Source of the DNA: Cladopsammia gracilis
Taxonomy: Eukaryota > Cnidaria > Anthozoa > Scleractinia > Dendrophylliidae
Assembly: GCA_022457155.1 (NCBI GenBank)
Contig: JAJGOT010000215.1
Span: 226,001-290,000 of the forward strand
DNA length: 64,000 bases
Direction of reading: 5' to 3'
Shown: positions 14,362 through 61,140 of the stretch, one piece after another
How the letters are laid out: each line of letters starts with the position of its first letter
Numbering within the stretch: the stretch's first letter is position 1
Notes under the pieces: generated by a model
What the model saw: the letters and a program-made list of their open reading frames with translations, nothing else
Told to the model about the DNA's origin: nothing
The model's database searches: none
Made by a program: the position numbers and the translations under genes

Positions 14362-14393
<32 letters not shown>

Positions 14394-14557
14394 CATCGTC
14401 ATCACCACTGCTACCATCAGCATCGCCAGCACCACTATCATATCACCCCCACCCGCACCCCATCATCATCATTTTCATTATCACCCTCACCAGCACTGCT
14501 ACCATCGTTATCGTTATCATTTTCATCTTCAGCATTATCATCGTCACCACCACCCTC

Positions 14558-14610
<53 letters not shown>

Positions 14611-34317: not shown

Positions 34318-37300
34318 ATGGATGACGCAGCCGAAGATTTAGAGTTTCTTGCTCGGGTAAGTAGGAACGCCCGTTACTTCAATTACGTACAAATTAGTTT
34401 TATCTCTTAATTCAGTTTTTTGCTTGTTATTTTGTCACTCATCCAATCAATGAATAATAATTTATGGATAAAAGAAATATTTTCCTTTGTGTTCTTTTTT
34501 GTTTTCCTAAAACAGTTCGAGGCGATAAAAACCTGTCAAACGATTGACTAACAAATAACAAAAACATTTATTTCGGTGTCCAAAATGTACGGTTTTGGTG
34601 ATTTCGTGTGGAAATTAGCAAATTCAAATGGGTCAAGATATGAGACGAATTTTGATTGGAAGAACCTAGTTTCGGGCTCAAAGGGTTAAGGATGTCAAAA
34701 TATGCAGTGGACATGTTGAAGCTTGGTGGTGGTTTCAACGGAATATTTGTTTAGATTATAATGTCCGAAGACAAGAAAAATGAGGCGGAGGCGGTAAGCA
34801 AATTGCTTTTGATTTAGTTTTAATTGTCCTGAGATCCAAATTCAGTTTGATCTTCTCCAGTAACCCTTAATATGTTGGAATGTGTTGTAGCTGATGTTTC
34901 GTTGGTGCTTTAGATGTGAAATAACTGATCATGTAAACTTTGTAATCAATCGATTGAGGTTCACCGCATTAAATTTCCCACTCGGATAAAGATAAATCCT
35001 TACTTTTTTATTATTTCACTCTCGAGAGAGTAGCAAAAATTAAAATTCAAGAAAAATACCAAACCATTGACTAAAAACATAACTACAGGAAAGTGCTGCT
35101 CAGCAACTTTCATTTGAATAGTCACACTGTAGGATTTCATCCACAAACACTACAGAATCTATGAGAGCGCACGACAGTCGATCAATGAAAGCGCACGAGA
35201 GTCGATAAAAGCCCATATATATATATACCATTTCGGAAAAGGGTGGAAGCCTGGAGCGAATTGCCGTGCATTTCATTTTGAAACGTTTTATTTTTAAAAA
35301 GCAAAGAAATAACGTAATTACGAACTTGAGAACGGTTTCATTGTATTTGCCAAGAAACACTGGGCGATTCACTGCAAGGTTTGGCGCCTTTTTTCTTTTC
35401 GATCCCACAGTTCAATGCGCTGTCACTCTCGTCCCAGGCTGCCACTCTTTTTCAAAGTGGTCCATTAAAGCCGATGATAGCGCACGAGAATCGAAGAGAG
35501 CACACGAGAGTCGAATGAAAGCGCATGAGTCGACAGGAGCGCATAAGAGTCGAAAAGAGCGCACGTGAGTCGTTGGGAGCGATATGATGAGAGCAGTTAA
35601 CATTTTAGTAGCTATACAAACTAGATTGAGAGTTACTTTTCGGTTCGTCTCAAACAACATGACTTCCTTTCCTGTATTCAGTTTGTTTCAGACGTAATTT
35701 CTCGAGTTCTTATGATATGTGGCTCGCTTATGGCAGTAGCAAACGGACTGATCCCATCTCTGGGCGCAATGATCTACGGAAACCTGACTGATGAGATTGC
35801 CATCCGGAAAAACTGGAATTGCACTTTGAACGACAGTACTACGACCCAAATGCTGAGAAACGTATCCACACTGGAGATGGTTATACCTAAGGTGACAGAA
35901 ATAAATGTCACGAAAATAAGATCGATTAAAATCACCCTAAACGAAACGGAAATGAGAGTTCTAATTTTGGGTGAGAACGGAAAGCAACTAATTGATAGGA
36001 CGTACGAGAACATAACAGCGGTAAGAATGAAAGGGACTGCTCTGAACGGGACAAAATTAGCAGAAATTGATGTAAGAGGAACTAGGGTAGAAATGGTGAA
36101 GTTGAAAGAGAAAAGTGAAGGTAAAACGAGTGGAAAAGGACCTGGCAGTCAAAATATTAGTGAAGAAATTAAAAAGTCAAAGAGACAGATCAAACGAATT
36201 CGAAAAAAGAGCGAAATGAATGGAGGATTAAATCTCTCCAGGAGAAAAACTGATCCAAACTCTCCTGATGATGGCATCGATGTCAGTAATGCACAGAGCA
36301 TTTCAAGCGTAGTACCTCCAACGCCAAAACCAATCATTGTTCCTCCAACAAACAATGTAAGCTACACGCTGCAGAATATCACGGAAAGTTGCCGCTCGTT
36401 TGAAAGCAGAGTGGAAGAGAACATGCGTAAATACGCTCTCTATTACGTGTACGCGGCATTTGCGACCTTGCTTTTCGCGTATGGTCAGACAGTGATGTGG
36501 AACATAGCGTCCGAAAGAGGAGTGCGAAACTTGAGCGAGAATCTGACCGACTCCGTGATGGATATTGATCCGGGATTTTATGATACCAAGATATACGAGG
36601 GCGCGGTCAACTTGGAAGACATCACGTGAGTATTGCGCATGTGCAAAAAGATAATAAGATATTCATTAGCGCTTTTCAGTCGTCTGTAGATCAAGCAAAA
36701 GACTGAGGAGCCTTCCCACCAACCTCGTCCCCAGTTCCTTCTCCACTCTCAAAAAATGGGGGACCAGGGGCAGAAACCTCTGAACGAGGCTGCCAAAATA
36801 TTCCAAATTGTCGCGTAATGAACTGTCTTCGTTTGAAAAACGTTTTCAGATGGCCAAAAAACAAACACGGCTGCTAATCGCTAAAAAGAACATTCGAAAA
36901 CGCCATCAATCAATCATTTATTTACCCACATAACGTACAATGAGTTAAAAGCCCATTTCATTGTATATCATGTGGCAAAATACTTCACAATCTTTCGAGT
37001 ATTTTGGCAGCCTTGTCCTTTGTCGGAGAAAGTCCTGGAGACGAGGTTGTCTTCCAACAACGGTTTCCGCGCTTTACCTGTGCTTGGCAACCAGGCAGTC
37101 TTGTAGGTAAGAAGTTTCAAGTGAAAACAAAAAAGGCATTGGAAAACAAAAGAAAACTGAGAGTATTTGTATGACAGTGTCCAAACGTTTAAAACTGATA
37201 TCTGAATTTACAGATGAAAAAAAAAATGGAACTACAAACAGCCCCGTGAGAGATTTGAACTCTCGACCCCTGGTTTACAAGACCAGTGCTCTAACCACTG

Positions 37301-40300
37301 AGCTAACGAGGCTAAGACTATATGTTTTGTAATGTTTTAGCACCGTGTTAGGTGAAGCACTCCAGTTGTGGCGTCATTTTCTCGTAACCTGCAAATAAGA
37401 TTGTTATATACCTTCACTTTAAGGAATAAAAATCAACTCTAAGCAAATGTAGAAAGGAACGATTACAAAGGAGTACAGGTTACAACAAGGTTTTTCCAAT
37501 AAATTGTCTATCAGTATACTGATTGTATATCCACAGGTAATAAGAGACGTCTGCGCGCAGACTAGTTTCACTTTGGTTTACCTTAGCACTATAATTTACA
37601 CACAGAGTTAATTCTCTGATTCCTTGTTAGTTTCACTTTGGGCCAAGGAAAGGGTCAGACTGTTCTATTTTATAATTTTTTCTCATCGCAAATAATGACT
37701 TCAAAAAGAAAGCGCCTTTCCAAGTGCTAACTATTTTTTCTGTTTAGAGATCCTAAAGACGCCATCAGTCAAAAAGACCTGGAAGCGCTTAGTGGGGGAC
37801 TGGGCGGAGAGATCGCGTACATGATTCAAAGCGTGTCGAATATTATGTCAGGATTTCTGGTCAGCTTCATTGAAAACTGGAAAATCACCATGGTGATGAT
37901 GTCTGCCGCGCCAGTCCTAGGAATTGTTCAGGGAGTCGCGGACAAGGTATTCAAGTCAAATGATCCGCTTACAAATACAGTCAACTCTCTCACGGCGGAT
38001 ACCCTTGAAAGGTGGACACCCCTGTAAGGCGGTAACCTCTGTAAGGCGGACACCCCTGTAAGGCGAACATCCCTGTAAGGCGGATATCCCTGTAAGGCGG
38101 ATATCCCTGTAAGGGGGACATCCCTGTAAGGCGGACGTCCCTGTAAGGCGGACTTCCCTGTATGGCGGACACCCCTGTAAGGCGGACATCCCTATGAAGT
38201 GGTCACCCCTGTAAGACGAACATCCCTGTAAAGCGGGCACCACTGTAAGGCGGTAACCCCCTGTAAAGCGGACACCCCTGTAAGACAGACATCCCTGTAA
38301 AGCGGGCATCCCTGTAAGCAGACACCTCTGTAAGGTGAAGAACAGTAGTTGGCACGTCCCGGCCCGAATTTCACTTGTTTGTTTGATAACGCCTCAGTTT
38401 GCGTCTTACGCTAAAAGATCCTCTCTCGCCGTTGGTTGCATGATTTAGCCAACAGAATACTGACGAAGATTTCTCTTTCCTCAGGCTGAAAAATTTATCA
38501 TGAAGCAAAAGGATGAGTTGATGAAACGCGCAAGTGGAATGGCAAAAAAGGGCCTGGGATCTATCAAAACCGTGGCGTCTTATGCTGGAGAAAAGGCTGA
38601 GAAAACACGGTAACAAAATCAACAATGGTTGATCAAATTTGTCTTTGTTTAAGATAAAAACTGTCATCAGATCAAGTTTCCTAATGCGACCGGTGTTCCG
38701 CACATTTGGAAAAAAGTGGAAATTCTGGCTAAACTTCAAAGACGCCGTAGTGTATGGGTGGGGCAGGCCGCTTTGAAAAAATCGAGTAAAACAAAAGAAA
38801 CCGCTTTCAGAGGGACACGCTTTTTGTGTAATGTTTTTGTTTTTATGTTATTACGCGTATGTTTTCGACAGCATGGACGGACAGTGCGACCCTAAAATGT
38901 TCTCAAATGTTTGGAACTTCCGTTTGCGGTTTCATTTTTTGGAAATTTTTGCACGGGCTAATTTTTGTTTTTGACTGCGGTGGGACCAGGCCCTTATTCG
39001 CACTGGGCTGTAAAAGTGCGCGCCAGTTTATGATTGGTAAACTTATTGACAGTTGATTGACAGTTGACATAATTCCGATTTCAAGGAAATCGGTGAGAAA
39101 AAGTCCATCTTGTGCCATTCTACTAACACTGCTAGCTTCATAAACACAAGATATTAAAGCCTCAAACCCAAATTTCAGGCAATAACTTATTTTGTCATCC
39201 ATTAGACCATCAGGCACTACTGTAGATGGTGTTTTGTATAGTGCCCCTCCCTATACAAGGTAGGACCTCTTCGAGAATGTTTGTTATGGCCACTTTCCTA
39301 AAAGGTATTTCCATCCGCAGATATTCCGGAAATTTAGAAGCTGCTGCCAGCCTGAATAAAATAAAAAGTCTTGTGCTTGCGATACAAAAGGGTGTCACTA
39401 CCGTACTCTCCTTTGGATTCCTTGGTTTAGCATTTTGGTAAGTGAAAAATGATATTTCCACCTCCTAATGTTGTTAACTCTATCTCTCTTTCTTGAAGTG
39501 GTTTCCTCCATAGAAAGCGTGGTAATCGAGGGAAAATATTTGAGAGAGCAGTGTGTGGGGGATGATGGAAAGGCTCCTATCCTTTCCCTTCCCGTCCGTC
39601 TTCGCGCGCGATTTCCTATTTCCAGTCTTCACTCAACAAATTACTCAGATTTAATAAATGGGCCTTACGTTAGAATAATCAGAGAAACTTCTGCGAATGA
39701 AACATTATAATAATTATAACTCATGATATGCTATTTCATTAGGTGAATTACAGCATGTTCAGGAATTGATGAAATGCACGTCTTCCATGCAAGTTGTCGA
39801 AAAAAATCACACTAAAACACGAGTTCTAGTTGTGAAATTCTACTTCCACATGATGCTGAAAAAATATGCCATTTCCCCTCCTCCCCCGCACAAAAGTTTA
39901 AAAATGAAAATAATAACAATAATAAAAAGGAACATCATGGACAGCCCCGTGAGAGATTTGAACTCTCGACCCCTGGTTTACAAGACCAGTGCTCTAACCA
40001 CTGAGCTAACGAGGCTGCGACAACTTTTAAACATCGTATACAAAAGGTATATTTGCTTATATTTTATTCAGGTACAGTTCCACGCTGTTACCTGGTGGAA
40101 GCGTCACTCCAGGCGCCTTGATGACGGTATGTTAGTCCGATACACAGTAGTCCTTTAGTAACTCAAGCTTAGACTGCGTAGGGAGGGGAGGGAGAGGGGC
40201 GTCACGCTCCAGATACCATGATGTGGGTATCACGCAGATAGGGTACATTGTTCTGTTGTTTGTTCTTTTGTTTTCTCAGCCAATCCTTTGAGGCGTTCCG

Positions 40301-43300
40301 AGACGTACATGCTGCCTCTCGCGCTCTGCGGTGCCAGTGCGGTCTCGCATTGCAGGGACTCGAATCTTCTATCTTCCTAGAGAAAACTGAGTACCTGCCT
40401 GTTGTTGATAGTTGAGGGAGTTCAAGATAACGACAATAGTCGTTATAAGGGTGGGGGAAACGCCACTGCAACGATAAGTGGTCTAAAAACAGGAAAACAA
40501 GAGATAGCAGGAGATTCGAGAGGAGAAAGGGTTGTACATATCGCAGTACTAGTACTTTGAATGACATGTTTCTTTTTATTCTGTTCAATAAAGATATTCA
40601 TGGCGATCATCTCTGGTGTGATGCAAATGGCGGGAACTGGAGATCAAGTGGACGACATCGGTGACGCCAGATCAGCGATTTCGTCTCTGCTAGGAATCTC
40701 TGAGTCGGTAATTTTCCTTCATTCGTTCCCGGCAGTTTTATTTCCCAAACAAACAGTACCTAAGGAAAAGTGCTGCTCAAGAGCTTTCATTTGAATGATC
40801 ACACCTTAGGATTTCATCCAGGGAATGTTCAAAAGGAGGATATTTATCCAGTGGATAACGCAAAAGACCATATTCGTATTCTTGGTATTAACCTGGAAGT
40901 GGCTTGCAATTCGCCACTTTAGAAACGAGAAGGAAACTGGGCCGAGTGAACTTTCGCAACGACTTCTGGGATCGTTACAGGGGACGCTTCTTTTGTCTTT
41001 GTCCCATTAACAGTCCCAGAAGTCGTTGCGAAAGTTCACTCGGACCAGTTTCCTTCTCGTTTCTAAAGTGGCGAATGGAGGCTCGTGTGGGATAAATTCA
41101 TTAAAAATAGTTGCATGTGAAACGATTGTCCCGCATGAGCCTCGATTGCAAGTTAGTTCCAGTTCAATACCGAGAATACCAGGATTGAGTTTTTTAATGC
41201 GTATCCACCACGGGGGCCTGAATGACACGACTCAGTGCCTTACTACGGTAGTGATAGGGTCAAAAGTTCATAAACAGATTCCTTGGTGTTGAATATAAAG
41301 CGGAACGTCAGGCCTGTCAGCGTGATAAGCAGAATCAACAGGCTGAGGGAGGCAGAGATCTCTTTCCTTTATCTGGACGTTTTGGTGGCTTCGTTTGTCT
41401 CCTTTGTTTTTCTCCTATTCCACGCTATAGTGCATAACTAGACTTTCTTCGATACCTGTGAGTGGGTGAAACTGATCATATGGGAGTTTCTATCAGCCAA
41501 TAGGGGCCGTACAACCCCTATCTCCCATCCCCTCCCCCCCCCCCCCCATAAAAAATAAAAATCGCATCAGTGGTGGTGACGTTTATTTGATAGCATTGTC
41601 ATACTAAACTAATAGGGGACTTGAAATACTCACATCGCTGTTCCAAAAAAGTATGCATTCATAGGTAGAACGGGTCGAGAGAGATTGTGAATGGGTTAAT
41701 ATAGCGGCTGGCATAGGTGCCTTTGCATGCTGAACTCCGATCTTCAACTTCAGTTGAATTGGAATTCCATTCACATTTTACAATTGGCATAAAGATTTGA
41801 CTGGATTAAATAATTCTGTAGGCTGATGATGAACCATTCGATCAGGCTACGAGTCAACTTGACGCAGTGTTTGGTAAACTGGACGTTTTTAATGTGTACT
41901 TCCATTATCCTTGTCGTCCCGAATATCAGGTATGGTACCTTCTTCTGTTTATAATTATGGCAAAGTAATGATAAAATCACACGGTACCACTAAGTTGTCC
42001 ATACGCTCCTTGGTAATCTCGTACCCAGATCTCACTCGTGCTTGTACTGCACTGAAATGTGAGATCTGGGTACGAGATTAGGCCCTGGCATGGGTAACGG
42101 TTTCTAAAGCATAAAGCGAAAGAAGTACTTCTTCTCCAGTGAAGGATGATTATCCGTCCCAAGGTTACCCCCGAGTATTGTTACGTCCCCTCCCCCCCCC
42201 CCCCCCCCCGAGTATTGTTATGTTTTCCGAACGGCTCGCCGGTACCAATTTATACGCATGGTCGGGATCGACAAAGCCTGGTGCCGGTACGCACGAAAGA
42301 AAACGGGGGCACCTGTCAAGAAACCTCTACTTTTTTCATTTGTTTTTATGTTCTCTGAGAGGACGTAAAATTCCCAGTGGCCAAGGGCGTTTTTGGCTAA
42401 TTTATCTTTCGCTTTTAGTCAATGGAAATTCGAGTTTTAAAAACATGCAACAAAAACTCACTGATCTGATCTGAACTATATATAAACAGGCGCCTGCTAC
42501 GCAGGTAAAGATAGTTAGTTCAGAGCAAAGTTTTATGTTTAAGAAAAACACCTACGGCAGAGACCAGGGTTTGAACAACCGACCTTCAGAACAGAGGATC
42601 TCTGAACAGTGAACACACCAGCCACTAGAGCACAGGGACTCCACACTAGACCACAGGGACTCCACACTAGACCACAGAGACTGTACACTAGACCACAGGG
42701 ACTGTACACTAGACCAAAGGGTATCCACGCTAGACCACAGGGAATCCACGCTAGAACACAGTGTCTCCAAAATGCGAAGGTTTCTGAGTAAGCAGTTTGT
42801 AGATGATTGTTAAATCTGGATTTAAATCTGGATTGGGGATCATTTTTTTTTAATTTAGTGAAACGTTCAGGCTTGTTTATTTTCCACAGCTGTTAAAGTC
42901 GATAAGCTTCACAGTGGACGAAGGTAAAACAGTCGCTCTGTTGGGAGACAAGGGCTGTGGGAAAAGCGCACTTATCAAATTGCTGCAGAGAATTTACGAT
43001 CCACAGATCGGAAAAGTAAGTAGGTTAGAAAATCTTTCCAGGATACCACTGTCCTCTGCAGATTTTGCAATAGTGTTTCATTAGATATTGTTAGCTTGAT
43101 TGTTATATGTTTTATTTATATTATTTTAGGTTTCAACTTTCATTATTTTGTTTATATTATAAACGACATTAATTACGAAGTTTTAAGCAATGTTCCGAAG
43201 ATTTTTCGAAGATTTTCCGAAGATTTTCGTGGAAGATCCGAAGACGTTTCGATTATAGACCAGTACCTATTATTAGCTCGTTTGACATTTAATGAAAAAG

Positions 43301-46300
43301 GCAAACATGGTAGCTAACATGAAGAATTTTATCTATTCATTCTTCACAGTGAAGATAGAATTGATATCTTCTCATGTGTCAAAATATGATTTTTCCGCAG
43401 TAGAAGAAATCCTCGCATTTCACTGAAGTTTATATAATAAATTACATTGTTTCACTTGAAGGTGAAGTTGGATGGGCAGGATATTCGTCTTCTCGATCGT
43501 CGCTGGTTTCGTCAACAAGTTGGAATAGTACATAAGAACCCCGAGTTCTTTAAAACTTCCATCGCTGATAACATTGCATTTGGCAAAAGTGAATCAACTT
43601 TGGAAGAAATCGTACGGGCTGCAAAGGATGCTGGGGCACACGAGTTTATCATGGCTTTGCCGAATGTAAGTCGCAGTCAAATTTTTCCAAACTACTTTTT
43701 TGTAATTTACACTCTTTCACAAACGCGATCGATTTGGTTTTGCAATATATAAATAAAGAAAGCTGGTAAATGTTAAGCTCGGAAATGAAATGGGAAAGAT
43801 GTTATGTTCATCATGCCACGAGCGTGGACCCCAACAGGAAACGAACCTATGACCTTTTGTATAGCGGTCAGATGCTCTAACAACTTAGCTACGAGGGACT
43901 TGTGGCGAGTTAGGCCATATACTGTGGTTCATATATGACATGTGTACTGCGTCCTGCGTCCTGCGTCCTGCGTCCTGCGTCCTGCGTCCTGCGTCCTGCG
44001 TCCTGCGTCCTGCGTCCTGCGTCCTGCGTCCTGCGTCCTGCGTCCTGCGTCCTGCGTCCTGCGTCCTGCGTCCTGCGCCCTGCGTACTGCGTACGGGAGA
44101 TTAGTTTAAGCTTACTTTATTATCTTGAAATTTGAAGGAACCATCGCTAAAAGTGATAGAAACAAAGAAATATGAACTAAACAGACAAAATAACGGCTAG
44201 AAAAGTCAAAATTTCACAAGAATGGCAAGTTTGATTTATTGACAAGCGGTCAATAAATCAAATTTTATGAACTGTATTCCACTTCAATCGTTGCAATTCT
44301 GCCCTTTACCTCTAAACTACTGCTTTTGTTTTGCTCTAAAGAATCTTTTTATCCATCAACTAAGTTGTATATTTGGTGGCATTTGGCGATATAACGTGGA
44401 CATAAGCTAAGCGAGATTTTGTTATTTCGGCGGGACAGTGCCCCTTTAACATTTCCGTCATTATAATTTATCACCTCACATGACGGTTTCGACATTGCTG
44501 ATAATCAACTAAAACGATATACATGTATATTGTAAGAAAGAGTTTCATAAAAGGTATCATACCTATCTTCATCTATTTTACCAATCTCTAGGGATACGCT
44601 ACAGTACTTAATGACAATGGATCACCGCTGACCTCCTATCAGAAACATTTGCTAGCGCTGGCTCGGGCAATGATCAGAAAACCCCGGATATTGCTGTGGG
44701 AGGAAGACTTGTCATTCATGGACTGCCCCGCCATGGATGTTCTTACTAATTACTTAGATAAGGTGATGAGCATTACTGCGCAAAAAAAAGTGTAACGACA
44801 CAAAAACAAAGCATGATATATGCAGAAGAATACTCGCAAGGGCTTTTTTTAAACAATATAGATAATGATCACTTGAGCTGAAGGTCCGTTTATACGATAG
44901 CCTGCGAGCAGGCTCACTTGTTTGGGGTATCGCGCGAGTATCTTGGGGGCGAAGCCGGCGAGAAGAATGGTGCGAGGAAAAGTAATTCGCGGCTTCCGCA
45001 TGGCACTCGCGCGTGAATTCCAAATAGTAGATCCTGCTCGCAGGCTATTTATATGACAGAAAAACAGGAAATGGTTCACATCGGTAGTAGAGCGAGTTCC
45101 CTTGAATGCGCAGCTGTTTACACGAAAGATTTCTTGGAACGGCTCGGCTAAACTGCTGTATATATCAATTCTCAAGTTAAAAAAACTGTTTATATGAGAA
45201 AACTGTTACGGAAACGGACCATATATTCGCATGTAAAAGCAACTGCCGGTTAGACAAAGGTGTTAGGTACTCGTCGCGATGCGATTATAAGCTTTTAGAA
45301 AATACATAGTTTGTCAGGGTTTTAATGAGGCATAGAGCAACAAAACGGCGCAAAAGCAAAGTGGTTATTTGAGGTAACCTGATACCTTAAGTTTAATTTT
45401 GCAGGCGCGTCGTGGACGCACTACAGTCATATCAACAAGTCACGTGTCCGTCGCCCGTATAGCTGACATCATTATTGTTCTTCACAATGGTGAAATAATC
45501 GAACAGGGGAGTCCTAAGGAGCTAATGCTGTCAGGAGGGGCATTCAGATATCTGGCTACCCTGCAGGTTATTTCTATTTGAAGATCGTTTGTATTTATTT
45601 GCTAGTTTTACATGACTTTACAATCATTGTATCACATGGTAAGGGTTTTGTACCAGGGGATGACCTGTCAACTAGATTCTTCCTAGAGTTGCTGTTACAT
45701 GAGGTAATTTTAAGTTTTGTAACTTGTCAAATGAGTGTCGAAAGTCATTTCTCATTTCGTAATTTGCTTTGGTTTTGCATTGCTACGCTTTGTGATTGGC
45801 TAAAAAATCTTGCGCCCTTTCTCGACCAATCAGATGTAAAACCAAAACCAATCGTGACTTGCTCACACGCGTTTTCCAGCGCTTGGCGCATGTATTTTAC
45901 ATTCTGATGGTTCATTGGGTTGTCTACGTCTGTTGTGATTGGCCAGAGTAATTACTTTAGTTTTGGTTTGACGACACTTAACTGAAAATCACTCTAAGTT
46001 GCAATACATGCTATACGTTGCAACGTTTTCCATAAAAAAATGGATCAATCTCCTTTTCCTGCAAATCATAATACAAAATTTGTTTGCGATACAAATTGCA
46101 AGGAGTGGTGCAATTTGTCTTGCAATGGCGTTGTGTTTCAAATCACAAAAAGAATCGCTTTGTGCAGCAGCACTAGTTTATCGTCAAGGAACTTCGTAAA
46201 TTATATATGAAAAAGCTATCCCACTGTAAAGCCACGCATGTCCAACAAACGTCTCCTTCTAACTCCTACTATATATTACTATCTACATTAAAAGGTTATT

Positions 46301-49300
46301 TTAGTAATCGCTGATTCCTTTTTGTAGTATTTTGAATCTCAATCTATACACCAAGAGAGGCTCCTAAAAACTGGTGAGACAATTTCAAATTCCATCGACT
46401 TTTTTTCTTTTGAGATTAAAAAGAAATATCTGATATTTACGAATCTGTCATGCACTTCTAGGATTGTTAACATGATCCTCATGTGTTTCTGTTCAGCACC
46501 AGTCTCAGCAACATTGCCACCGGTCAAAGATGGAATTGAAACACTGGAGTCGGGTTTAAACGAAACTGAGGAGCAGACGAAACAGCAAGTGAAAGGCTTC
46601 ATATCAAAGATTCGGCAGATGATCCAAGACAAGGTGATGAATATGAACAAATACAGTCGAAAACCCGTACTAACGGCCGAGTTCCCATAATGCTACCCCT
46701 CTACAACGGCCATGTTTTCCTGTCCCAATTTCCCCTCCATTCATTCGAATTCTCTTATTGAAACTTCCCCTTTGCCCTCTTTTCTCTACAATGGCCAGAA
46801 AAAACAGTCCAAGGATGGTCATTATTCGACTCTGTGATCCCCCCATGCCCCGAACCCGCCCAACCCTGGTAAATAGGCTGTCCAAGAAACATGTGCATTT
46901 TCAAATGCATTTTAGTCACTCTTTAAAATCAGATTGGAGTCTGATTGAAAGCAATCGAGGCAAGATTTCCCCTTTAATTTTATTACAGTGAATAAAAAAT
47001 ATGAAGAGAGCGTTCCCTGAAATTCACAACAGTATGGCAAGTACAAGAACAAAGAGGCGCTTTCCCTCTTTGGTAATTAACAGTTTGAGCTCCTACATGA
47101 AATAAAACTTTAACCTTTCTACACAAACGTTTCGTTACAGTTAAATGAGGGTCAAGCGGCGTACAAAATGATCAGAATGCAGCTTCAAGATCTACCATTG
47201 TTGTTAGCTGGAGCATTAGGAGCTGCTATCACGGGAATGGTCGCCCCTGGACTCTCCTTTTTATTTGGGGAAATTCAAAAGGTAACAAGACTGGAATGGA
47301 GCCATTTACCCAATTACGACAAAGATTTTCCAAGTCAAGATGGAAAATTTCCTAGATTTATTTCATTTTGCCAAACCGTGGAAAGATTTTCCAAAATTCT
47401 CCGAATCCTGTCCGAACGTTGTACGAACGTTTCTGAAGATTGCCGAAGATTTCCGAGGAAAATCCGAAAAAGTTTTGATTGTAGACCAACATCTTTTAAC
47501 TTATTTCACATTTTTTAATGGCAAACAAGTTAAAAGATATTGGTCTACAAATAACAGCCAACATAGTAACTAACGTGAAGATATCGATATCTTCACACGT
47601 GTTGAGATATGATTTTCCCGCAGTGGGAGAAATCCTTGTATTTTACTAAAGTTTTTATAATAAGACTACATAGCAGGCAAGTATAGCTTAGTAGTTTTCA
47701 TTTGTCATGAATTTTTCACTCTTTTTTTATTTCAGTTTATGAATGACCCACTCAGAGTAGCGAAGGAAGGCCCATTCTGGGCAAGCATGTTTGTGGTGCT
47801 TGGACTCGTTGTAGGGTTTGGTGGCACACTAGAGGTAAGCTAGTCAAAATAACAAGCTTGAAAATAAATTGTATATACTATAATAATACGAAATGTACTC
47901 ATCATAACAATTTAATACTTTAATGTTTTCTTTTCAGAAATTTATGCTGAGTTTTGCAACTGAGAAGTTGAGGACAAGACTGCAGAAAATGGCCTTTGAT
48001 TCTACCGTTAACAAGGTAAAACGAAGCTCATTGGATCCAGTGCAACATTAAATAGCATTAGCTACGTAGCCTCTTAAATCATTAATTTGTATCAAAACAC
48101 GTAACTGATGCTTAATCTTGTTCTTCCAATAGAATTCAGTCCCTCAAGTTCCAGGAATTGCAGATGCGTCGTCCTTGCTTCCTGGAACCGGAGGAAAGTT
48201 TCCCGACATGCCACAGTCCTCAGAAATGGGCTTGCCTGCACTGCCGGGTATACCATCAGCCGGTGGACTTTCTCCACCAATAGCAGGGACGCCAACAGGA
48301 AGTGTTGGAGGGATGGTGCCTAGCGCAGTGGCAGGAGGTGTTGGAGGAATGGTGCCTGGTGCAGTTAGTGGAGCTGTTGGAGGGATGGTGCCTGGTGCAG
48401 TGGGAGGAGGTGTTGGAGGGATGGAGCCTGATGCAGTGGATGGAGGTGTTGGAGGGATGGTGCCTGGTGCAGTTGGTGGAGGTGTTGGAGAGATGGTGCC
48501 TGGTGCAGTTGGTGGAGGTGTTGGAGGGATGGTGCCTGATGCAGTGGGTGGAGGTGTTGGAGGGATGGTGCCTGGTGCAGTTGGTGGAGGTGTTGGAGGG
48601 ATGGTGCCTGGTGCAGTTGGTGGAGATGTTGGAGGGATGGGGCCTGGTAAAGTGGGAGGAGGTGTTGGAGGGATGGTACCTGGTGCAGTTGGTGGAGATG
48701 TTGGAGGGATGGTACCTGGTGCAGTGGGTGGAGGTATTGGAGGGATGGTGCCTGGTGCAGTTGGAGGAGGTGTTGGAGGGATGGTGCCTGGTGCAGTGGG
48801 AGGAGGTGTTGGAGGGATGGTACCTGGTGCAGTTGGTGGAGGTGTTGGAGGAACGGTGCCTGGTGCAGTTGGTGGAGGTGTTGGAGGGATGGTACCTGGT
48901 GCAATGGGAGGAGGTCCGAATGCAAATCTCTTGGTAAGGTCGCATATCAAGAACATCGATAATCTTACTAGAGTTTTTTTTTTATTTTATTTCTCTATCT
49001 TACTGGAGTTGCAAGTTGCAATTTATAGTAGCGTTAGAATAGAATTGAAATTCAGATGCAACTCTAGTAAGATGATCGTTGTTCGATCGAAACATCTCAT
49101 GTAAATTCACAGTTCTTGTTCATTTTTAACTCGTGAATACACAAAGCGTTGAAATACTTATTACAGTGGGGCAAAATTTCACTCGATCGGTCGGTCGGCT
49201 GTTAACATTGAGTCCGCGATATGTAATGGTCACCTGTCTTACCCATAGGGACGGCGTTGGAGAGAGGAGAGAGTGGGGAGTTAGACGCAGGGGGTCGGTG

Positions 49301-52300
49301 AAGCAAAACCTCGTGGAGATGGGAGGTTCGAACGTCCCGTATTGATTTACAAAGTAATTACACCTAATTGAAAAAACGTTGTCGGATACAAACCATAAAC
49401 AATACGATCGAATGGTTTTCTGGGAAGCGGAAAAAACGTCTTGTATTCTCAGATAAATTGCACATTACTATAACACAGTATGCCCAACATCAACCACTGA
49501 AAACATTTTACAAGGAATAGATCTCAAATATCAATATAAGGAATGCTAACAAGCCTCATTTGCCTTGGTGCCAAGAATTCCATTGTGTCTTATCGTTCAT
49601 ACTTTATGCTTTTTTCCGACTTTTCTTATCAATCAAGTGCATTCACAATCATCTAAAGATGTACCAATTTAGAGGTAGCTAACGTATGAGATACTAACAA
49701 TATCTGATCAGGAGTGGAAAACATTATTTGATTACTGAAACTATAATCCTGACTCTATCCATAATATTAACCTAAGCAGTAAGGTAATGAAAGCTCAAAT
49801 TCTATATGTATAGTTTATGCACACTGCGTCAATTTTGAATTGAATTTGGCATATGGATGTTGTTTTTGTATTTAGCTGTTACCAGATCCCCAAAAACAAG
49901 CCGATGAACTCATGGCAAAGGTAGAAAAGGACGTGGAAGCGGCTATGCAAAATGTGAGTTTCCTACTAACTAGAGGCGAGGGGGACCGGGGGGGGGGATT
50001 GTTCTCCACCAACCATCGCCCCAGAAGCTGAGAGCTTGATTGCTGGCTGCCCGCTAACTAGACTACGCATTTCTTTCTTTATTAATCTATAGCTGAGTTT
50101 TACTGAGAGACCACTTCTATATTTAACAACTATTCACCGAAGTGGAGGTGGGTAGTGGTGGATATTTACCTCGCCGCAAGGTGAATAGTTGTTCTAGTAT
50201 ATACTGAAACAGTGAGATGATAACGAAAATGATGCTTTTTAACTCATTTATTCCTGTCAATGATTACAATTTTCGCGTGCAAATTGCTGGGAGGTGAATA
50301 GCACTTGCTATTCCGAGTTTCAGTAGCCAATCAGAGCGCGCCAACAATGCTATCCACTGTTTCAGTAAATACTAACAAGGGATAGTGTCGACCTTCGGGA
50401 TCGCTTAATGGAGATTGCGACCATATTTCTTTTTAATGTTTGATGTTAATAGGGATGATCTGTGATAAATTCTGAACTTTAATTTCATTAGCGACTAATC
50501 TCCCATAATCAACCTGCCCTCAGTTGCGACAGATTCTACTGTTGATAGTTATTTTTATCTTCCCGAAACGATTAATTAACTTGTCTTTTCTTTTTATATG
50601 GATATCAGTCTATAGGCAAATATCTAGGTCCTAAAGTCCAGGAGACCATAACAAGCGTATCCACGCTTGGCATGGCGCTTTACAACGGATGGAAGATGAC
50701 TCTGGTAGTGCTTGCTGGCCTGCCAATCATTGGTATAGCCAATCGCATGCAACACAATGAAGCTGATGTTACAGAGGAACCGGAAGGAGTGGAAGCAGTA
50801 GGCCTTTTATTCGTTATTGTTGATTGGAAAGTAAAAGCTTGTACACAAGGTGCAACAACCTCGGTCCCAGGACCTTCTTCGCTTTCAAAACGGCTGGACG
50901 AGCGGAGGAACGCCTGGACAATGCGGCCGGAATACTCTAAGATTTCGTAGAGTGCTATGTTGCGTGAAATATAATGAAATATAATCTTTCTTCTCGAAAC
51001 AGGGTTTTTCAGTAAAACAAATTTGGCTCTCGATCGCTAGAAATAACCTCCAAAGACAGTCACGCGACAAAATGCTCCACGATTCTTAGTGTATTCTGGC
51101 AGCCCCTACCGCCATTTTGAAAACTGAGCAGACCCTGGGGACGAGTTTGAGTGCAACGCAACATTTGGGACCCAAGGTGTGCCCACCTCCACCGCGGTCA
51201 AACGAGAGAAATTTGCAAAAGTCAAGCAAAGTACTTCAAAGTTAAGGTTGTCATTTTCACTGTTTAAAGTTTAATATATTACCAATACACTGTCAATTCA
51301 CTAAACGTTTTGAAAGTTTACCAAAAAAGTTCCAAGCGTTTGAAAACTATGAACTTCAGAATTGTCGACGCCATTTGCGAACACTATTTTGCTCGGGCAT
51401 GAAGCGTTTTGGTCAGTTTTCAACGAAAAGAAGTTCATTATTTTCAGAAAGATGAAAAGATAGTTACATAAACTATTTATTTTATACATCCTTGCCCATG
51501 TTTCACTTAATATTAAATGAATTCCCACTAAATAAAACGAAAAACGCCTCGGACGTATGACCGCGGTGAAGTGCCCACCCCTGTAATTGCGATCATGAAT
51601 TTCGAAGTAAGAATTAAGGGTAGACACATCTTGCTAGTTTGTCTCCACGTCGCCTTAATTGGATTCAATTTAAAGGCCCATGTTCACCCAATCTGCTTTG
51701 CGCGCCCGGGCTGATTTTTGCACAGACGGAAAATTGAAAAATCGACGTGCCAGCCAATCATAACGCTACATTGAACAATTGAACCGTTTCAAAACAAAAA
51801 CGCAAGCGCGCAAAGCAGATTGGGTGAACATGGGCCTTTAATTCAGAGGTCAATTGATTTGGTCATGTAAATTTTGAGTCAGTGGACAAAATTCTCATTT
51901 TTTCTTGACAGTGAAAATGAAACCTATAAGCAATAGTATCCACTAGATAAGGGTATTTAAGAATATTAGTCAACATTTTTCATGAATTTTGTGACGTTAG
52001 CAAAGCCCAATCCGTTTTAATATTTTGACCATATAAAATAGTAAAATTCTTAAGAGATTTGAATTTGTCATTATACCTAGATCAAGCAGCCAAACAGTGG
52101 ATATTTAACGTAAGAATACACTTGTTTAACAGTTATGGTTACCGTCTCATAATTGACAGTTAGTTCTCTCTTACATCATAGTTAATGAAAACTAGCTTCA
52201 AGAAGATGGAAACCATTTCAGCTCTTGGAGTGGAAAATAAGTTTGCCAATAAGTACAAGGACGCCGTCTTCGAAAAATACAAGTAACTATAGAGTTTCCT

Positions 52301-55300
52301 GAAACATTTATGTACATTGTTACCTGTAGCTATCTTGTTCTTAATAGCAGGGCGTTCAAGTTGAGAAAAGAGAAGAAAATATAATTATGTTGTTAGCGGA
52401 ATAAAGGAGGAAGGACTAGGGTGAGGGACTGCACTTTTTCCTGCCAATTCCCCTTCAGACAACGCACTTACTTTGCAGAATTTTGAGGCTCACAGTCTGT
52501 CTTTCCAAAAGATGCTACTACTATCCGTGTTTTCAACTTGTGCATTCTATAATGTTGATGCTTCTGTGTGCATCTTGCCAACAGGCAGGCGCTAAAGAAA
52601 ATCATCGCCAGCGGCTTTGCCTTTGCGCTTGGTCAAGCTATGGTTTTCTTCATCTACGCAGGCGCATTGAGGTTCGGCTGCTACCTGATTACCATTGGAG
52701 ATATGACACCAATTCAAGTGATTGGGTAAACAATGAACTCACAATTGATCATAATTTTCTCAGCGTATGTTTTAAAGGCTTTTTAGCTTATTTGATAGCG
52801 CATCGCACTGGTTTCCCTGAAGTCACGAGTTCAAATCTCAATGAAGCCTATAGCTGAAAATATCCAGGCAATTGAATTTAATAATATGCAAAACGTCTTT
52901 CTTGTGATCGATTAATAACGCGGTCTCTGATATAAACCTCTCTATTACGGACAGTTCACTTTGGTTTACTTGGTTCAATCTCTACCTCTACAATACTAAC
53001 ATTCTCAGTGTGAAATCAGTGACGAAGAAACCATTTCAATATATTTACAAATAATATTTTTTGCAGGGTTTTAATGACGGTGTTGTTCGGTTCATCTGCC
53101 ACGTCCAGCTCACGAGCGCCTGCGCATGCGTCTGAAAACAATGAAGAATCACTGAACAGACTGTTTGAAGACGAGGCAACAGACGTCACGGGTCAAATGG
53201 GCGACAAGTTGGTGAGTGTAAGACGTTGCATGCAGAACAATTAGTGCGAATATCCTTAAATTATACGTTGCAGATGTCATCCATTGTCAGTGTTCAAAGT
53301 TTAAATCATACGCCTCGTTTCCAAAATCTTTATCTGCAGTCTCAGAAACAAATGTGTCTGAAGTTAAATTAAAAACCTTTTTTGCTTGATTTTAAGTTAA
53401 CTTTTGTTTTAAAAGGATGAAGTTGAAGGTAGCTTGGACTTTAAACACGTAGAGCTTGCAGATCCCCTTCACAAGGAGAAGCCATTGTTAAGCCAGCTCA
53501 ACGTGAAGATCAGCGGAGGAAAGAAGTTAGCACTTGTTTCGCTGGACAATGAAAAGTTAAATCCATTGGAACTTTTGGCGGAACGTTTCTTTGATCCTAC
53601 TAGAGGTGCACTGGTAAGTAGAAAAGCTCATATCCAGAGTCCTGAGGCTTCTTCATTCAGTGATAGTACGCATGGGAGGAACTCTGAGATAATGCTGTTC
53701 CGGTTTCGGTTTCTGGGTACGGGATTACAAACAACCAACAGAATGTGACGCGCGTGTGCAGTTCGGGCTAAAGCTCCAACCTCGTTCCCAGGGCTTTAAA
53801 CGTCAAATTTAAAGAAAAAGGAAAAGCACTGGGAACGAGTTTGACCATTCTCGTCCCCAGAGCCACGATCCCTTTGGCCAGCGTCACGGATCACGGACTC
53901 TGGCTAGTTCCAATTTAAAAGTCGTTCTGCGCAGACTCAGAGTTTGCAAATCGGAACCTGCCAGAGTCCGTGATTCCTGGCGCTGGCCAAAAGGATCGCG
54001 GAGACGAGATCTAAGTACATCTCAGTTTGCTGCCGGATTGCCTCTCTAAGGGAGGGGAATAAGACTGGCGAGGTGACGTCTTGTCCCACAACATAATCTT
54101 AGGTTCGTTAATTTTCCAACGTTGGTGAAAAGGTTTAAGGTAAACATATGATCTTTTTTCGCCTTTTAGTTTTTAGACGGAGCTGACATCCGTGGTTTGG
54201 ATCTCTGTTGGTTACGATCACAGTATGCTGTGGTGTCTCATCGTTGTTTCCTGTCACATTGCAGTATTGCTGATAACATCAGCTATGGTAACGATTATAG
54301 AGCATGCGCCGTAACGAGGCGGGAGATTGAAGACGCTGCACACTCGGCGTACGCACACGAGTTTATCATTGACCTGCCAAAGGTTAGCCCAGATTTTTTA
54401 CTTTTAGAGTCAATCGTTTAGTCATGTGATATCGTTCTAGCTAACATTGGTGTGTGCCCGGGATTCAAAATCAAAATGCAGTACCTTTTGGCTTTACTAG
54501 TTAATGTCCAAAATAATACTAACACCATGTTAAAGTAATCAACCAATTCTTGAAAGAGGAACAAGTCACGATCTGTTCTAGCCCATTTTAGAAACAAAAA
54601 TGTGACAACTTTTCAACTTGTGATTCATTCAGACCCAGTCTCTCGGTGACAAGAAGCACTCATCGACACTCTGTACACTGAGGTGTTGATTAATAAAAAA
54701 AGTGTATCATTATTTTTCGGATTCTGTTAATACCAAAACATTGTTTGGGTTTTATATATAGCAAATTTTTTTCACCAACCATTTTGCTTAATGTTTTAGG
54801 GTTATGACACGGTCCCCGACGAAGATCAAATCGAATTAAATGAGAGTCAGAAAATGAGAATAGTTATCGCGCGAGCGATTATCAGAGGACCACCGATTAT
54901 TGTGCTTGATGAGTTAGAAGAACGAAGTCAGGTGAGTTCAGTCTTTTTCTTCTCAGGCCAGCAAGCTTAAAGTGCCTATGAAGCGAAATGGTTTTTGGAT
55001 ATATCGAAAGTTTCACTATTTGTGACCTCAAACTAAGGGAATGATAGCGTAAACAAAGCAATACGTCATCCTTTTTACGTAATTTTCGTCATCACTCGCC
55101 CTAGGCTCTCCAAAAATTGTCGCATCTTTGAGTTGCTAAAAAACGATTTTCCTTTTTTTCCTCGACAAATAATAATTATTATCGTTCTTTGGACATGATA
55201 AACTACAGAAAAACGGAGAAAAAATTTCGCTTCATGGGCACTTTAAGGTAATATCAAAACTATTATTGTGTCTCCACAGGCTGTGAACGACGCTTCGGAG

Positions 55301-55483
55301 ATTCTCTGCCGCAACAGAACTTGTCTTATACTCACGAGATGCCGACAAACAGTTGAAGCCGCAGACCAGATAGTCCTTATGTACCGCGGGCGAGTCTTGG
55401 AACAGGGAACGCTGGAAGAACTTAGGGAACGAAGGCGCTTGTATCATTTACTTACAAACTTTCAAGATGCTGATGAAATTTAG
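34318..55483 (+). CDS. Full-length ABCB (P-glycoprotein-type) protein with degenerate NBDs; candidate pseudo-transporter, 28 exons, 1,701 aa
   Basis: Exons: 34318-34356, 34755-34793, 35682-36625, 37748-37946, 38485-38609, 39321-39437, 40072-40126, 40594-40707, 41822-41929, 42890-43015, 43462-43665, 44592-44762, 45405-45566, 46328-46373, 46497-46633, 47141-47281, 47736-47834, 47938-48015, 48133-48933, 49876-49953, 50609-50797, 52182-52282, 52585-52725, 53067-53211, 53416-53613, 54170-54382, 54800-54931, 55280-55483. All introns are GT-AG and the phases close. The order TMD1-NBD1-linker-TMD2-NBD2 follows ABCB1 throughout. NBD1 keeps Walker A (599-606), but its Q-loop Gln is Lys647, its signature is LTSYQ (703-707), its Walker B Asp is Glu727 and its H-loop position is Ser759. 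NBD2 has lost Walker A (1495-1503), the A-loop Tyr (Asp1469), the Q-loop Gln (His1543), the signature (LNESQ) and the H-loop His (Arg1654). An enlarged first extracellular loop and a repeat-filled cytoplasmic loop add about 420 residues. The first exon is the least certain; an ATG at 34761 is an alternative start. Confidence 0.9.
35781..36416 (+). other. Enlarged, sequon-rich first extracellular loop of the ABCB-like protein
   Basis: Residues about 60-271 lie between predicted TM1 and TM2. In typical ABCB1 this loop is some 50-60 residues; here it is about 210, with twelve N-x-S/T sequons, a Lys/Arg-rich middle (about 186-206) and a Pro-rich stretch before TM2. It is encoded within one 944-bp exon. 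Predicted to be a heavily glycosylated ectodomain if the standard topology holds. Confidence 0.75.
37240..37312 (-). tRNA. tRNA-Thr (anticodon UGU), copy 1
   Basis: On the minus strand the 72 bases plus discriminator fold as a full cloverleaf: 7-bp acceptor (GCCTCGT/ACGGGGC, one U-G), D arm GCTC/GAGC, anticodon arm CTGGT/ACCAG with loop CTTGTAA, T arm GAGAG/CTCTC with TTCAAAT. No CCA is encoded. An A run just beyond on the plus strand gives a T-run Pol III terminator. Antisense in intron 3 of the ABCB-like gene. Confidence 0.92.
37996..38338. repeat. 17-bp minisatellite in intron 4 of the ABCB-like gene
   Basis: About 20 units close to ACACCCCTGTAAGGCGG. Same period as, and similar wording to, the array at 5305-5966. 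Non-coding. Confidence 0.85.
39943..40015 (-). tRNA. tRNA-Thr (anticodon UGU), copy 2
   Basis: The mature region is identical to 37241-37312, but the flanks differ. Antisense in intron 6 of the ABCB-like gene. A short A run about 15 bp beyond on the plus strand could act as Pol III terminator. Confidence 0.92.
40862..41186. repeat. Family C fold-back with a second fold-back nested inside
   Basis: The outer ends match 15261-15420 ('tcgtattcttggtatt', 'agttccagttcaatacc'). Inside, 40908-41078 is a separate long hairpin with arms of about 75 bp ('gccactttagaaacgagaag' mirrored by 'cttctcgtttctaaagtggc'). Intron 8 of the ABCB-like gene. Confidence 0.75.
42013..42080. repeat. Hairpin repeat in intron 9 of the ABCB-like gene
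   Basis: 'taatctcgtacccagatctc' is mirrored by 'gagatctgggtacgagatta' around a loop of about 28 bases. Confidence 0.8.
42538..42624 (-). pseudogene. tRNA-like fragment (SINE-type)
   Basis: On the minus strand it reads with an A-box-like start near 42620 and a B-box-like segment near 42573 ('ggttgttcaaacc'). Degenerate. It directly precedes a 21-bp minisatellite. Confidence 0.35.
42626..42775. repeat. 21-bp minisatellite
   Basis: About seven units of CTAGACCACAGGGACTCCAC-type sequence in intron 9 of the ABCB-like gene. Confidence 0.8.
43183..43440. repeat. Dispersed repeat (family G), copy 1
   Basis: Shares ordered phrases with 47388-47660 ('tccgaagattttc', 'gattatagacca', 'gatatcttc', 'atatgatttttccgcagt', 'agaaatcct'). 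Both copies lie in introns of the ABCB-like gene in the same orientation. Confidence 0.65.
43815..43905 (-). pseudogene. tRNA-derived SINE-like sequence
   Basis: On the minus strand it reads 'gtagctaagttgttagagc' (A box) and 'ggttcgtttcc' (B box) at tRNA spacing, with a poorly paired acceptor. Probably a tRNA-derived SINE head. Confidence 0.55.
43940..44085. repeat. Heptanucleotide array (TGCGTCC)n
   Basis: About 20 near-perfect copies of TGCGTCC in intron 11 of the ABCB-like gene. It yields a spurious open frame repeating LRPASCV. Confidence 0.95.
44897..45049. repeat. Fold-back MITE ('tagcctgcgagcaggct' ends)
   Basis: Left 'gatagcctgcgagcaggctc' and right 'cctgctcgcaggctat' are inverted; about 150 bp. 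Intron 12 of the ABCB-like gene. Confidence 0.7.
45767..45960. repeat. Dispersed repeat (family E), copy 2
   Basis: Collinear with 29884-30110 ('ttttgcattgctacgctttg', 'gattggctaaaaaatct', 'gcgttttccagcgcttggcg'). Confidence 0.7.
47388..47660. repeat. Dispersed repeat (family G), copy 2
   Basis: See 43183-43440. Contains an internal hairpin ('gtgaagatatcgatatcttc'). Confidence 0.65.
48301..48912 (+). repeat. Coding minisatellite: 17 x 36 bp, elastin-like VGGMVPGAVGGG repeats in the ABCB-like protein
   Basis: Exactly 612 bp, 17 units of 12 residues (residues 1025-1228), inside the 801-bp exon 48133-48933. The consensus unit is GVGGMVPGAVGG; variants include E, D, K and T substitutions. It is preceded by a Pro/Gly/Ser-rich 56-residue lead-in. 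The position aligns with intracellular loop 3 between TM8 and TM9, after the conserved 'EKL..RL..MAF' helix. The 36-bp period keeps several frames open on both strands, including a 270-codon antisense Pro-rich frame that I treat as a shadow. Confidence 0.9.
50117..50375. repeat. Fold-back repeat in intron 20 of the ABCB-like gene
   Basis: 'aacaactattcacc' is mirrored by 'ggtgaatagttgtt' about 85 bp apart. 'actgaaacagtg' near 50210 and 'cactgtttcagt' near 50355 may mark an outer pair. Confidence 0.6.
51669..51842. mobile_element. MITE with 'ttaaaggcccatgttcaccc' ends
   Basis: 174 bp. Left 'aatttaaaggcccatgttca' and right 'tgaacatgggcctttaatt' are perfect inverses, continuing through 'caatctgctttgcgcgc'. 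Intron 21 of the ABCB-like gene. Confidence 0.85.
52780..52880 (+). pseudogene. tRNA-derived SINE fragment
   Basis: 'ttagcttatttgatagcgc' (A box), 'gagttcaaatctc' (B box) and matching ends ggctt...aagcc look tRNA-like, followed by a short non-tRNA tail. Intron 23 of the ABCB-like gene. Confidence 0.55.
53849..54009. repeat. Fold-back MITE in intron 25 of the ABCB-like gene
   Basis: 'tctcgtccccagagccacga' ... mirrored by '...ggatcgcggagacgaga'. 'cacggactctgg' and 'ccagagtccgtg' pair exactly. Confidence 0.75.
54967..55246. mobile_element. MITE with 'ttaaagtgcctatgaagcg' ends
   Basis: 280 bp, inverted ends (right: cgcttcatgggcactttaa). Last intron of the ABCB-like gene. Confidence 0.8.
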
Positions 55484-60500: not shown

Positions 60501-61140
60501 CTGCTTGTGCAGTTTCGCTTAACCGTTTAACTCCCAAGAGTGCCAAAAATTAAAATTCAAGAGAAATCCTAAACTTTATTTTGTTAACTGGATATTAAAA
60601 AACAAATGATACCACTCAACGTACTGCTAATGATCACCCCATAGGATTTCGTCGACAGACTCAAAAGTTAGAATTACGTTAAATGTCTTCATAATTGACT
60701 CCAGGGGTAAAAAAGTTAAGGTATGGTAATACGAACTTGTCTGAATTGAGTTGAATTGAATTGATTAAATGATAAATATTTTCTCTTAGAGATTTCAGCA
60801 TACCATGACATTTTGTTGGAAGATGTTTCGTGGATTCCAAATCTTCATCTTCATTGTTATCCATTTCCTCGTCATCATCATCATCATCATCATCGTCGTC
60901 GTCGTCTTCGTCATCATCATCTTGATCAACCTCACTTTCCTCCAACCCTGAATCTTTATCCCTCCGTCCATCCTTTTTGCGGCCATTGTCCAAATTGTTT
61001 GTTTCTTTTCTTATCGAGTCTTTTCTCACTCTTATGCCGTCCATTACCACAAATTCATCATCGACCATTAATTCTGAGCATAGGACGGTATTTAGAAATA
61101 AAACCAGAACAAAAGCGATGCCATATCTTGACCTGCGCAT
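57531..61140 (-). CDS. Canopy (CNPY3/4-like) secretory-pathway protein with an Asp-rich spacer; 3' end unresolved
   Basis: Minus-strand exons: 61140-60804, 59172-59076, 58688-58594, 57748-57621, all GT-AG with closing phases (219 codons). The donor at 57620 implies a further exon that I could not find; reading through gives a stop at 57531-57533. Residues 1-21 are a signal peptide. Residues ~65-105 are an Asp/Glu tract encoded by a GAT/GAC microsatellite. Then comes the Canopy/saposin-like domain: C-x2-C start (KCHVC), 'VTENLCD' block, and an 'IRRLKKQ' end matching the CNPY3 segment just before its next Cys. CNPY3/4 are ER proteins that assist Toll-like receptor folding. The long acidic spacer before the first Cys is unusual. 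Whether an ER-retention tail exists is unknown. Confidence 0.78.
59205..59507 (+). repeat. Family A fold-back repeat with internal tandem duplication
   Basis: Upstream of exon 2 of the minus-strand Canopy gene, in its first intron. Same duplicated architecture as 21287-21576. Confidence 0.75.
60345..60476. repeat. Family F MITE, short copy
   Basis: 132-bp near-perfect hairpin. Ends 'taaggcccggttcaaacgtc' and 'gacgtttgaacgccgggcct' are inverted. Short form of 33423-33911. Confidence 0.85.
60521..60718 (+). repeat. Family A fold-back repeat, further copy
   Basis: Left 'aaccgtttaactcccaagag', right 'gactccaggggtaaaaaagtt', core 'ataggatttcgtcgacagac'. Confidence 0.7.

Follow-up and report, generated by a model that had tools for sequence, protein, structure and literature searches.

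The stretch of DNA analysed here, hereafter called the window, covers 64,000 nucleotides of the coral Cladopsammia gracilis (assembly GCA_022457155.1, contig JAJGOT010000215.1, positions 226,001-290,000 of the forward strand). It harbours a 28-exon gene whose predicted product has the architecture of a full ATP-binding cassette (ABC) transporter of the ABCB type, with two transmembrane domains (TMDs) and two nucleotide-binding domains (NBDs), and in which neither ATP site has a complete set of catalytic motifs. We rebuilt this gene from stop-to-stop reading frames and splice sites, independently of an initial annotation of the window, and reproduced the model that it had proposed, i.e. 28 exons in a single open frame, with GT-AG borders in 27 of 27 introns and exon phases that close. 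The spliced coding sequence is 5,106 nucleotides long and encodes 1,701 residues followed by a stop codon, with no internal stops; its two alternative forward frames contain 106 and 97 stops.

34318..55483, plus strand: whole gene, pseudo-ABCB full transporter, TMD1-NBD1-TMD2-NBD2, 1,701 residues (28-exon reconstruction)
34318..34793, plus strand: exons 1 and 2, weakly supported N-terminus, with an alternative start at Met16 in exon 2 (splice sites; resemblance to an anemone protein, see below)

A phmmer search of the PDB returned ABCB4 as the best match (PDB 9ody, E 1.6e-189), with P-glycoproteins among the top matches. In total, 492 distinct sequences were collected at E <=0.001, the best 60 of which are named ABCB, MsbA or similar; CFTR and SUR names are absent from these best 60 of 492, a count that compares names only and involves no tree with ABCC proteins. 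In alignments, the order TMD1-NBD1-TMD2-NBD2 is clear and similarity to ABCB proteins extends across all four units. Judging from these similarities, the gene encodes an ABCB full transporter by fold and descent. The initial annotation had described both the order and the spacing of ABCB proteins as kept; the order is, and the spacing is broken at a first extracellular loop of 198 residues and at exon 19, which adds 267 residues.

When single exons were submitted to Pfam, exon 3 was recognized as ABC_membrane (3.8e-8), and exon 12, which carries the signature motif of NBD1, scored 14.8 bits for ABC_tran, under the 25-bit cut-off. Kyte-Doolittle hydropathy did not cleanly separate 12 transmembrane (TM) helices and also flagged NBD stretches and part of exon 19; the TM assignment was taken from the alignment. 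Relative to canonical ABCBs, the usual stretch upstream of TM1 is absent from the window model and from that of a sea anemone relative. As the anemone model (P0003) begins with MSTEKKN, which resembles the MSEDKKN context of Met16, translation may start in exon 2, exon 1 being untranslated.

Catalytic motifs of the two NBDs

Motifs were called from an alignment with six canonical full-length ABCBs, from Clupea, Haliotis, Semiaphis, Sinanodonta, Danaus and Spinacia. The counts below give the sharing of each state among the window protein and its hexacoral relatives (see next section); they include the window protein and only take into account the positions covered by each model.

42944..42967, plus strand: NBD1 Walker A, GDKGCGKS, intact (alignment and six-frame string scan)
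43534..43536, plus strand: NBD1 Q-loop position, Gln replaced by Lys (VHKNP; alignment), Lys in 4 of 4
44628..44642, plus strand: NBD1 signature, LTSYQ in place of LSGGQ (alignment)
44688..44708, plus strand: NBD1 Walker B, ILLWEED, Asp replaced by Glu, catalytic Glu retained (alignment; Asp instead of the catalytic Glu in the anemone)
45438..45440, plus strand: NBD1 H-loop position, Ser in place of His (STSHVS, the next residue being a His; alignment), Ser in 4 of 4
53536..53577, plus strand: NBD2 Walker A position, now VSLDNEKLNPLELL, Lys lost and Ser replaced by Asn in 8 of 8, V.LD....NP.ELL invariant in seven stony corals
54239..54241, plus strand: NBD2 Q-loop position, Gln replaced by His (VSHR; alignment), His in 7 of 7
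54836..54850, plus strand: NBD2 signature, LNESQ, first Gly replaced by E, D or M in 7 of 7 and second Gly by Ser in 7 of 7
54896..54913, plus strand: NBD2 Walker B, IIVLDE, retained, with a shortened D-loop behind it (alignment)
55337..55339, plus strand: NBD2 H-loop position, His replaced by Arg (alignment), Arg in 7 of 7

All the losses reported in the initial annotation were borne out by the alignment, namely the LTSYQ and LNESQ signatures, the missing Walker A of NBD2, which is swapped for VSLDNEKLNP, and the replacement of both Q-loop Gln and both H-loop His residues. It had not listed three others, the Asp-to-Glu change in NBD1 Walker B, the replacement of the NBD2 A-loop Tyr by Asp and the shortening of the NBD2 D-loop, where four to five alignment columns are deleted (the last two read by eye from the alignment, like the sharing of the A-loop change, with Asp in seven of eight family members and His in Acropora). 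NBD1 of the window protein retains its A-loop Tyr.

In ABC proteins, each ATP site is formed jointly by the two NBDs, one contributing Walker A and the other the signature, with the ATP held in between. In the window protein, site 1 (Walker A of NBD1 and signature of NBD2) has a P-loop and no signature, and site 2 has neither. Among the hallmarks of an active transporter, Walker A was found in NBD1 only, and no LSGGQ-type signature, Q-loop Gln or H-loop His was found. Because of these motif losses, and given the established mechanism of ABC proteins, no canonical ATPase cycle is expected, as the initial annotation had anticipated. The aphid protein of our control set (Semiaphis heraclei, P0031) also has a degenerate NBD1, with LSICQ as its signature and LDKATS as its Walker B, which shows that single-site decay occurs elsewhere.

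It is unlikely that canonical exons were overlooked in the window, since tblastn with five ABCBs (two canonical proteins and three relatives, E 1e-3) gave no match to duplicate or missed ABCB exons outside 34-56 kb, and since a six-frame string scan of the window detected a single Walker A, that of NBD1, and neither LSGGQ nor any canonical string for Walker B or the H-loop. The listed tblastn matches of the canonical Clupea protein coincide with exons of the model. As controls for such strings, we used 136 other homologues of at least 1,100 residues. Walker A is found at least twice in 134 of them and once in the other two, and never more than once in any family member. The signature string occurs at least twice in 79 homologues, once in 52 and not at all in 5, it falls upstream of Walker A in four of the relatives (e.g. 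KVSGGQTLAIV), and the H-loop string fails to match 39 of the 136. As the signature and H-loop strings are unreliable, our motif assignments are based on the alignment and not on string counts.

Hexacoral relatives and sequence constraint

We collected relatives through three protein searches, with approximately 8,000 candidates of limited lengths scored in each. Seven hexacoral proteins, from six stony corals and one sea anemone, scored far above canonical ABCBs. The longer ones belong to Oculina patagonica and Porites lobata, both recovered by two of the searches, and to the anemone Actinostola sp., the model of the latter being broken, and those of Stylophora pistillata, Porites lutea, Acropora palmata and Montipora capricornis are C-terminal fragments. 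In databases, all four fragments are called multidrug resistance or ABCB1-like proteins, and the other three are hypothetical or unnamed.

A comparison with cnidarian relatives had been proposed in the initial annotation, and it gave a positive answer, the losses being common to the seven hexacoral relatives over the parts that they cover. In addition to the replacements whose sharing is tabulated above, NBD1 lacks the Gly-Gly pair of its signature and has Glu for Asp in Walker B in 4 of 4 proteins. The Walker B of NBD2 is altered further in some relatives, with Asp replaced by Glu in Acropora and Montipora and Glu by Gln in Stylophora. Walker A and the A-loop of NBD1 are retained in all three proteins that cover them.

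Identity to the window protein in NBD1 amounts to 84-86% in Oculina and Porites lobata and to 67% in the anemone. For TMD1 it reaches 80% in Oculina and 38% in the anemone, Porites lobata covering only 44 columns. The six stony corals are 81-88% identical to it in TMD2 (53% for the anemone) and 68-81% in NBD2 (45% for the anemone, over 65 columns). Within the family, TMD2 surpasses NBD2 in conservation in 28 of 28 pairs, vs 0 of 15 pairs of canonical ABCBs, NBD2 being the better kept in all 15. This represents a contrast rather than a test because the pairs are dependent and because the canonical ones are much more divergent, with TMDs that are harder to align. Across the seven stony corals, 107 of the 242 columns of NBD2 are invariant. 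The stretch that replaces Walker A has 8 invariant columns out of 14 and that of the Q-loop 6 out of 8, both being constrained no less than the domain as a whole. The corresponding figures are 3 of 6 for the signature, 4 of 9 for the H-loop and 2 of 9 for Walker B.

These data bear on the idea of a decaying pseudogene or a gene-model artefact, with which the fragmentary database models of four of the seven relatives and the 36-bp tandem repeat that makes up most of exon 19 would be consistent. However, the frame is open across 1,701 codons, with no stops or frameshifts in the model, the ends of exon 19 are conserved in Oculina and Porites lobata (see below), and constraint is apparent at the protein level, as judged from protein identity only. 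Because six other stony corals combine the same replaced motifs with a core identity of 68-88%, a dead copy is strongly disfavoured on sequence grounds, in agreement with the initial annotation, and we regard decay or artefact as very improbable.

In a phylogenetic tree, the stem measures 1.23 substitutions per site and the stony-coral branches 0.01-0.17, which is what one would expect if a burst of change had given way to constraint. The branching among stony corals is only partly resolved. Oculina was placed on the outgroup side (support 68) and the window protein with Porites (support 89), four of the stony-coral rows being fragments; the two robust corals did not form one clade.

A structure was predicted for the 548-residue Stylophora fragment only. 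The model suggests that the ABC fold of NBD2 is retained in this relative; its TMD part is poor, with a predicted local distance difference test (pLDDT) score below 75 in every TMD block. A predicted fold of this kind, together with the NBD1 Walker A and catalytic Glu and the NBD2 Walker B that persist in the window protein, would suit a slow or partner-dependent transporter, endowed with residual ATPase activity or forming a subunit with another ABC protein. Nevertheless, we find such a transporter doubtful, given that the signature, the Q-loop Gln and the H-loop His are lost from both NBDs, that Glu replaces Asp in the NBD1 Walker B and that Acropora, Montipora and Stylophora show additional changes in the NBD2 Walker B.

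Large inserts and other features of the window

Two long insertions account for the altered spacing of the protein.

35814..36407, plus strand: first extracellular loop (ECL1) between TM1 and TM2, residues 71-268, 198 residues, 11 N-glycosylation sequons (reconstruction; predicted to lie outside from ABCB topology)
48133..48933, plus strand: exon 19, Gly/Val/Pro-rich insert of 267 residues in the third intracellular loop (ICL3), just upstream of coupling helix 3 (reconstruction; predicted to be cytoplasmic from ABCB topology)

The counterparts of ECL1 are a 328-residue loop with 14 sequons in Oculina and a 655-residue region with 22 sequons in the broken anemone model. Exon 19 contains 17 in-frame units of 36 bp (12 residues) between 48304 and 48915, arranged around VGGMVPGAVGGG, and 39% of the insert is Gly. 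The equivalent inserts are 443 residues long in Oculina and 516 in Porites lobata, and they are Gly/Pro- or Gly/Ala-rich. Charged residues represent 2.7-7.8% of the insert across the three species, and its ends, NKNSVPQ...LPDPQKQ, are common to them. Insert identity to the window protein is approximately 42-54% in Oculina and Porites lobata, the alignment being less meaningful in these regions. The anemone model is devoid of the exon-19 insert and, being broken, cannot decide on its presence. Among the 17 units, departures from the consensus number 5, 12 and 21 at codon positions 1, 2 and 3, respectively, and comprise 21 synonymous and 17 non-synonymous changes vs 33 and 75 possible ones, in copies that share a history and are thus not independent. 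This codon pattern fits mild constraint.

Other elements were found within the introns of the ABCB gene. Two tRNA-Thr(TGT) genes are located on the minus strand at 37239-37313 and 39942-40016, in introns 3 and 6, respectively, antisense to the ABCB gene; both score 72.6 bits in Rfam and they appear identical by eye. Intron 4 harbours a tandem array of short units, cccctgtaaggcggaca, at about 38010-38340, and intron 11 a 'gtcctgc' tandem repeat at about 43950-44090. Upstream of the ABCB gene, an open frame on the plus strand (1063-3292) encodes a RING-variant (RINGv) domain (E 1.3e-15 for 1063-2124), and is presumably MARCH-like. Long low-complexity open frames rich in His and Ser are present at 13876-15366 and 60682-61149, and a minus-strand frame combines a long acidic stretch with a start that, by eye, looks like a signal peptide.

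Possible functions of the coral protein

The coral protein resembles ABCB1, ABCB4 and ABCB11 of the P-glycoprotein group in its domain order, in the similarity of its four units and in the NBD fold, as predicted for the Stylophora relative. In contrast with them, it lacks the signature, the Q-loop Gln and the H-loop His at both sites as well as Walker A in NBD2, it has giant inserts in ECL1 and ICL3, it misses the stretch that precedes TM1, and its TMD2 is better kept than its NBD2. ABC proteins with one dead site are well known, and TAP, TM287/288 and ABCC1 have likewise lost catalytic residues at one site, whereas the coral protein has lost those of the second as well. CFTR, SUR1 and SUR2 are non-pumping members of ABCC, in which the binding of ATP serves to regulate other functions. 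The coral protein may be like them in that an exporter architecture would have been turned into a channel or a regulator, with ATP at a degenerate site. It differs from them in being closest to ABCB, with neither site full, whereas CFTR and SUR are ABCC proteins with one competent site; the likeness would thus lie in the way of working, with no claim of class membership.

The explanation that we favour, with reasonable though limited confidence, is that this full-length ABCB protein, which lacks complete catalytic motifs at both ATP sites through losses found across hexacorals, is a non-pumping membrane receptor or regulatory subunit. NBD1, whose A-loop Tyr and Walker A are kept, would bind one ATP without hydrolysing it efficiently, and NBD2, devoid of a P-loop, would play a structural part as its partner. 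The TMDs, which are the best-kept parts together with NBD1, would carry the function, as a ligand-binding site or a conduit. The sequon-rich ECL1 would face the outside, and the Gly/Pro-rich loop ahead of coupling helix 3 might weaken or replace the coupling of the NBDs to the membrane.

By analogy with SUR, a receptor or regulatory subunit is our first choice, and a CFTR-like channel or facilitator, whether ATP-regulated or passive, comes next. In the latter, the conserved TMDs would let a substrate or ions follow their gradient, while NBD1 would hold one ATP. The unusually good preservation of TMD2 relative to NBD2, the retention of the NBD1 Walker A and A-loop in three of three proteins and the fact that all four units can be aligned are in keeping with such a channel. 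However, no channel-specific residue or regulatory domain turned up, no systematic search having been aimed at them, and the TM part was poorly modelled in the Stylophora relative; on balance we consider a channel or facilitator unlikely.

Several points weigh against a receptor or regulatory subunit. The NBD2 Walker B keeps its Asp-Glu pair in the window protein, and NBD1 keeps both Walker A and the catalytic Glu, so that a weak ATPase activity or ATP-driven movement is possible. ABC exporters with one dead site still pump, and motif loss alone is therefore no proof that transport has been lost. The NBD1 losses are documented by four sequences, since the anemone model is broken and four of the relatives are represented by C-terminal fragments, and the TMD2-NBD2 comparison carries the limits given above. 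In NBD2, the signature, Walker B and H-loop stretches show no clear excess of invariance over the whole domain, and drift following the loss would explain them just as well as new selection. Lastly, the receptor or regulatory role was picked through analogy.

Among the open-licence papers listed (titles and abstract starts; subscription papers and preprints were outside the search), none describes a conserved ABCB protein with full-transporter architecture in which both sites are incomplete, NBD2 is devoid of a P-loop and two giant inserts are present, and none deals with a doubly degenerate cnidarian ABCB. Coral work treats ABCB1 as a toxicant-efflux protein, as in PMC6505131, which also discusses an ABCB4-like gene of Acropora, LOC107340542, that could not be matched to the family of the window gene.

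For the family as a whole, we see an even chance that these proteins form an old, constrained group of hexacoral ABCBs that stopped pumping, with one ATP at NBD1 as a ligand, NBD2 as a dead scaffold, and the membrane domain, the glycosylated outer loop and the elastin-like cytoplasmic arm making up a receptor, regulator or channel, i.e. an ABC counterpart of pseudokinases. A conserved ABC exporter in which neither ATP site is complete would show that the fold can be retained for a job without an ATP cycle, and such a family would represent a natural test of which parts of the exporter fold matter in that case. Databases list four of the seven related proteins as multidrug resistance or ABCB1-like translocases, and such genes could thus be miscounted as pumps, which, to judge from their sequences, they probably are not.
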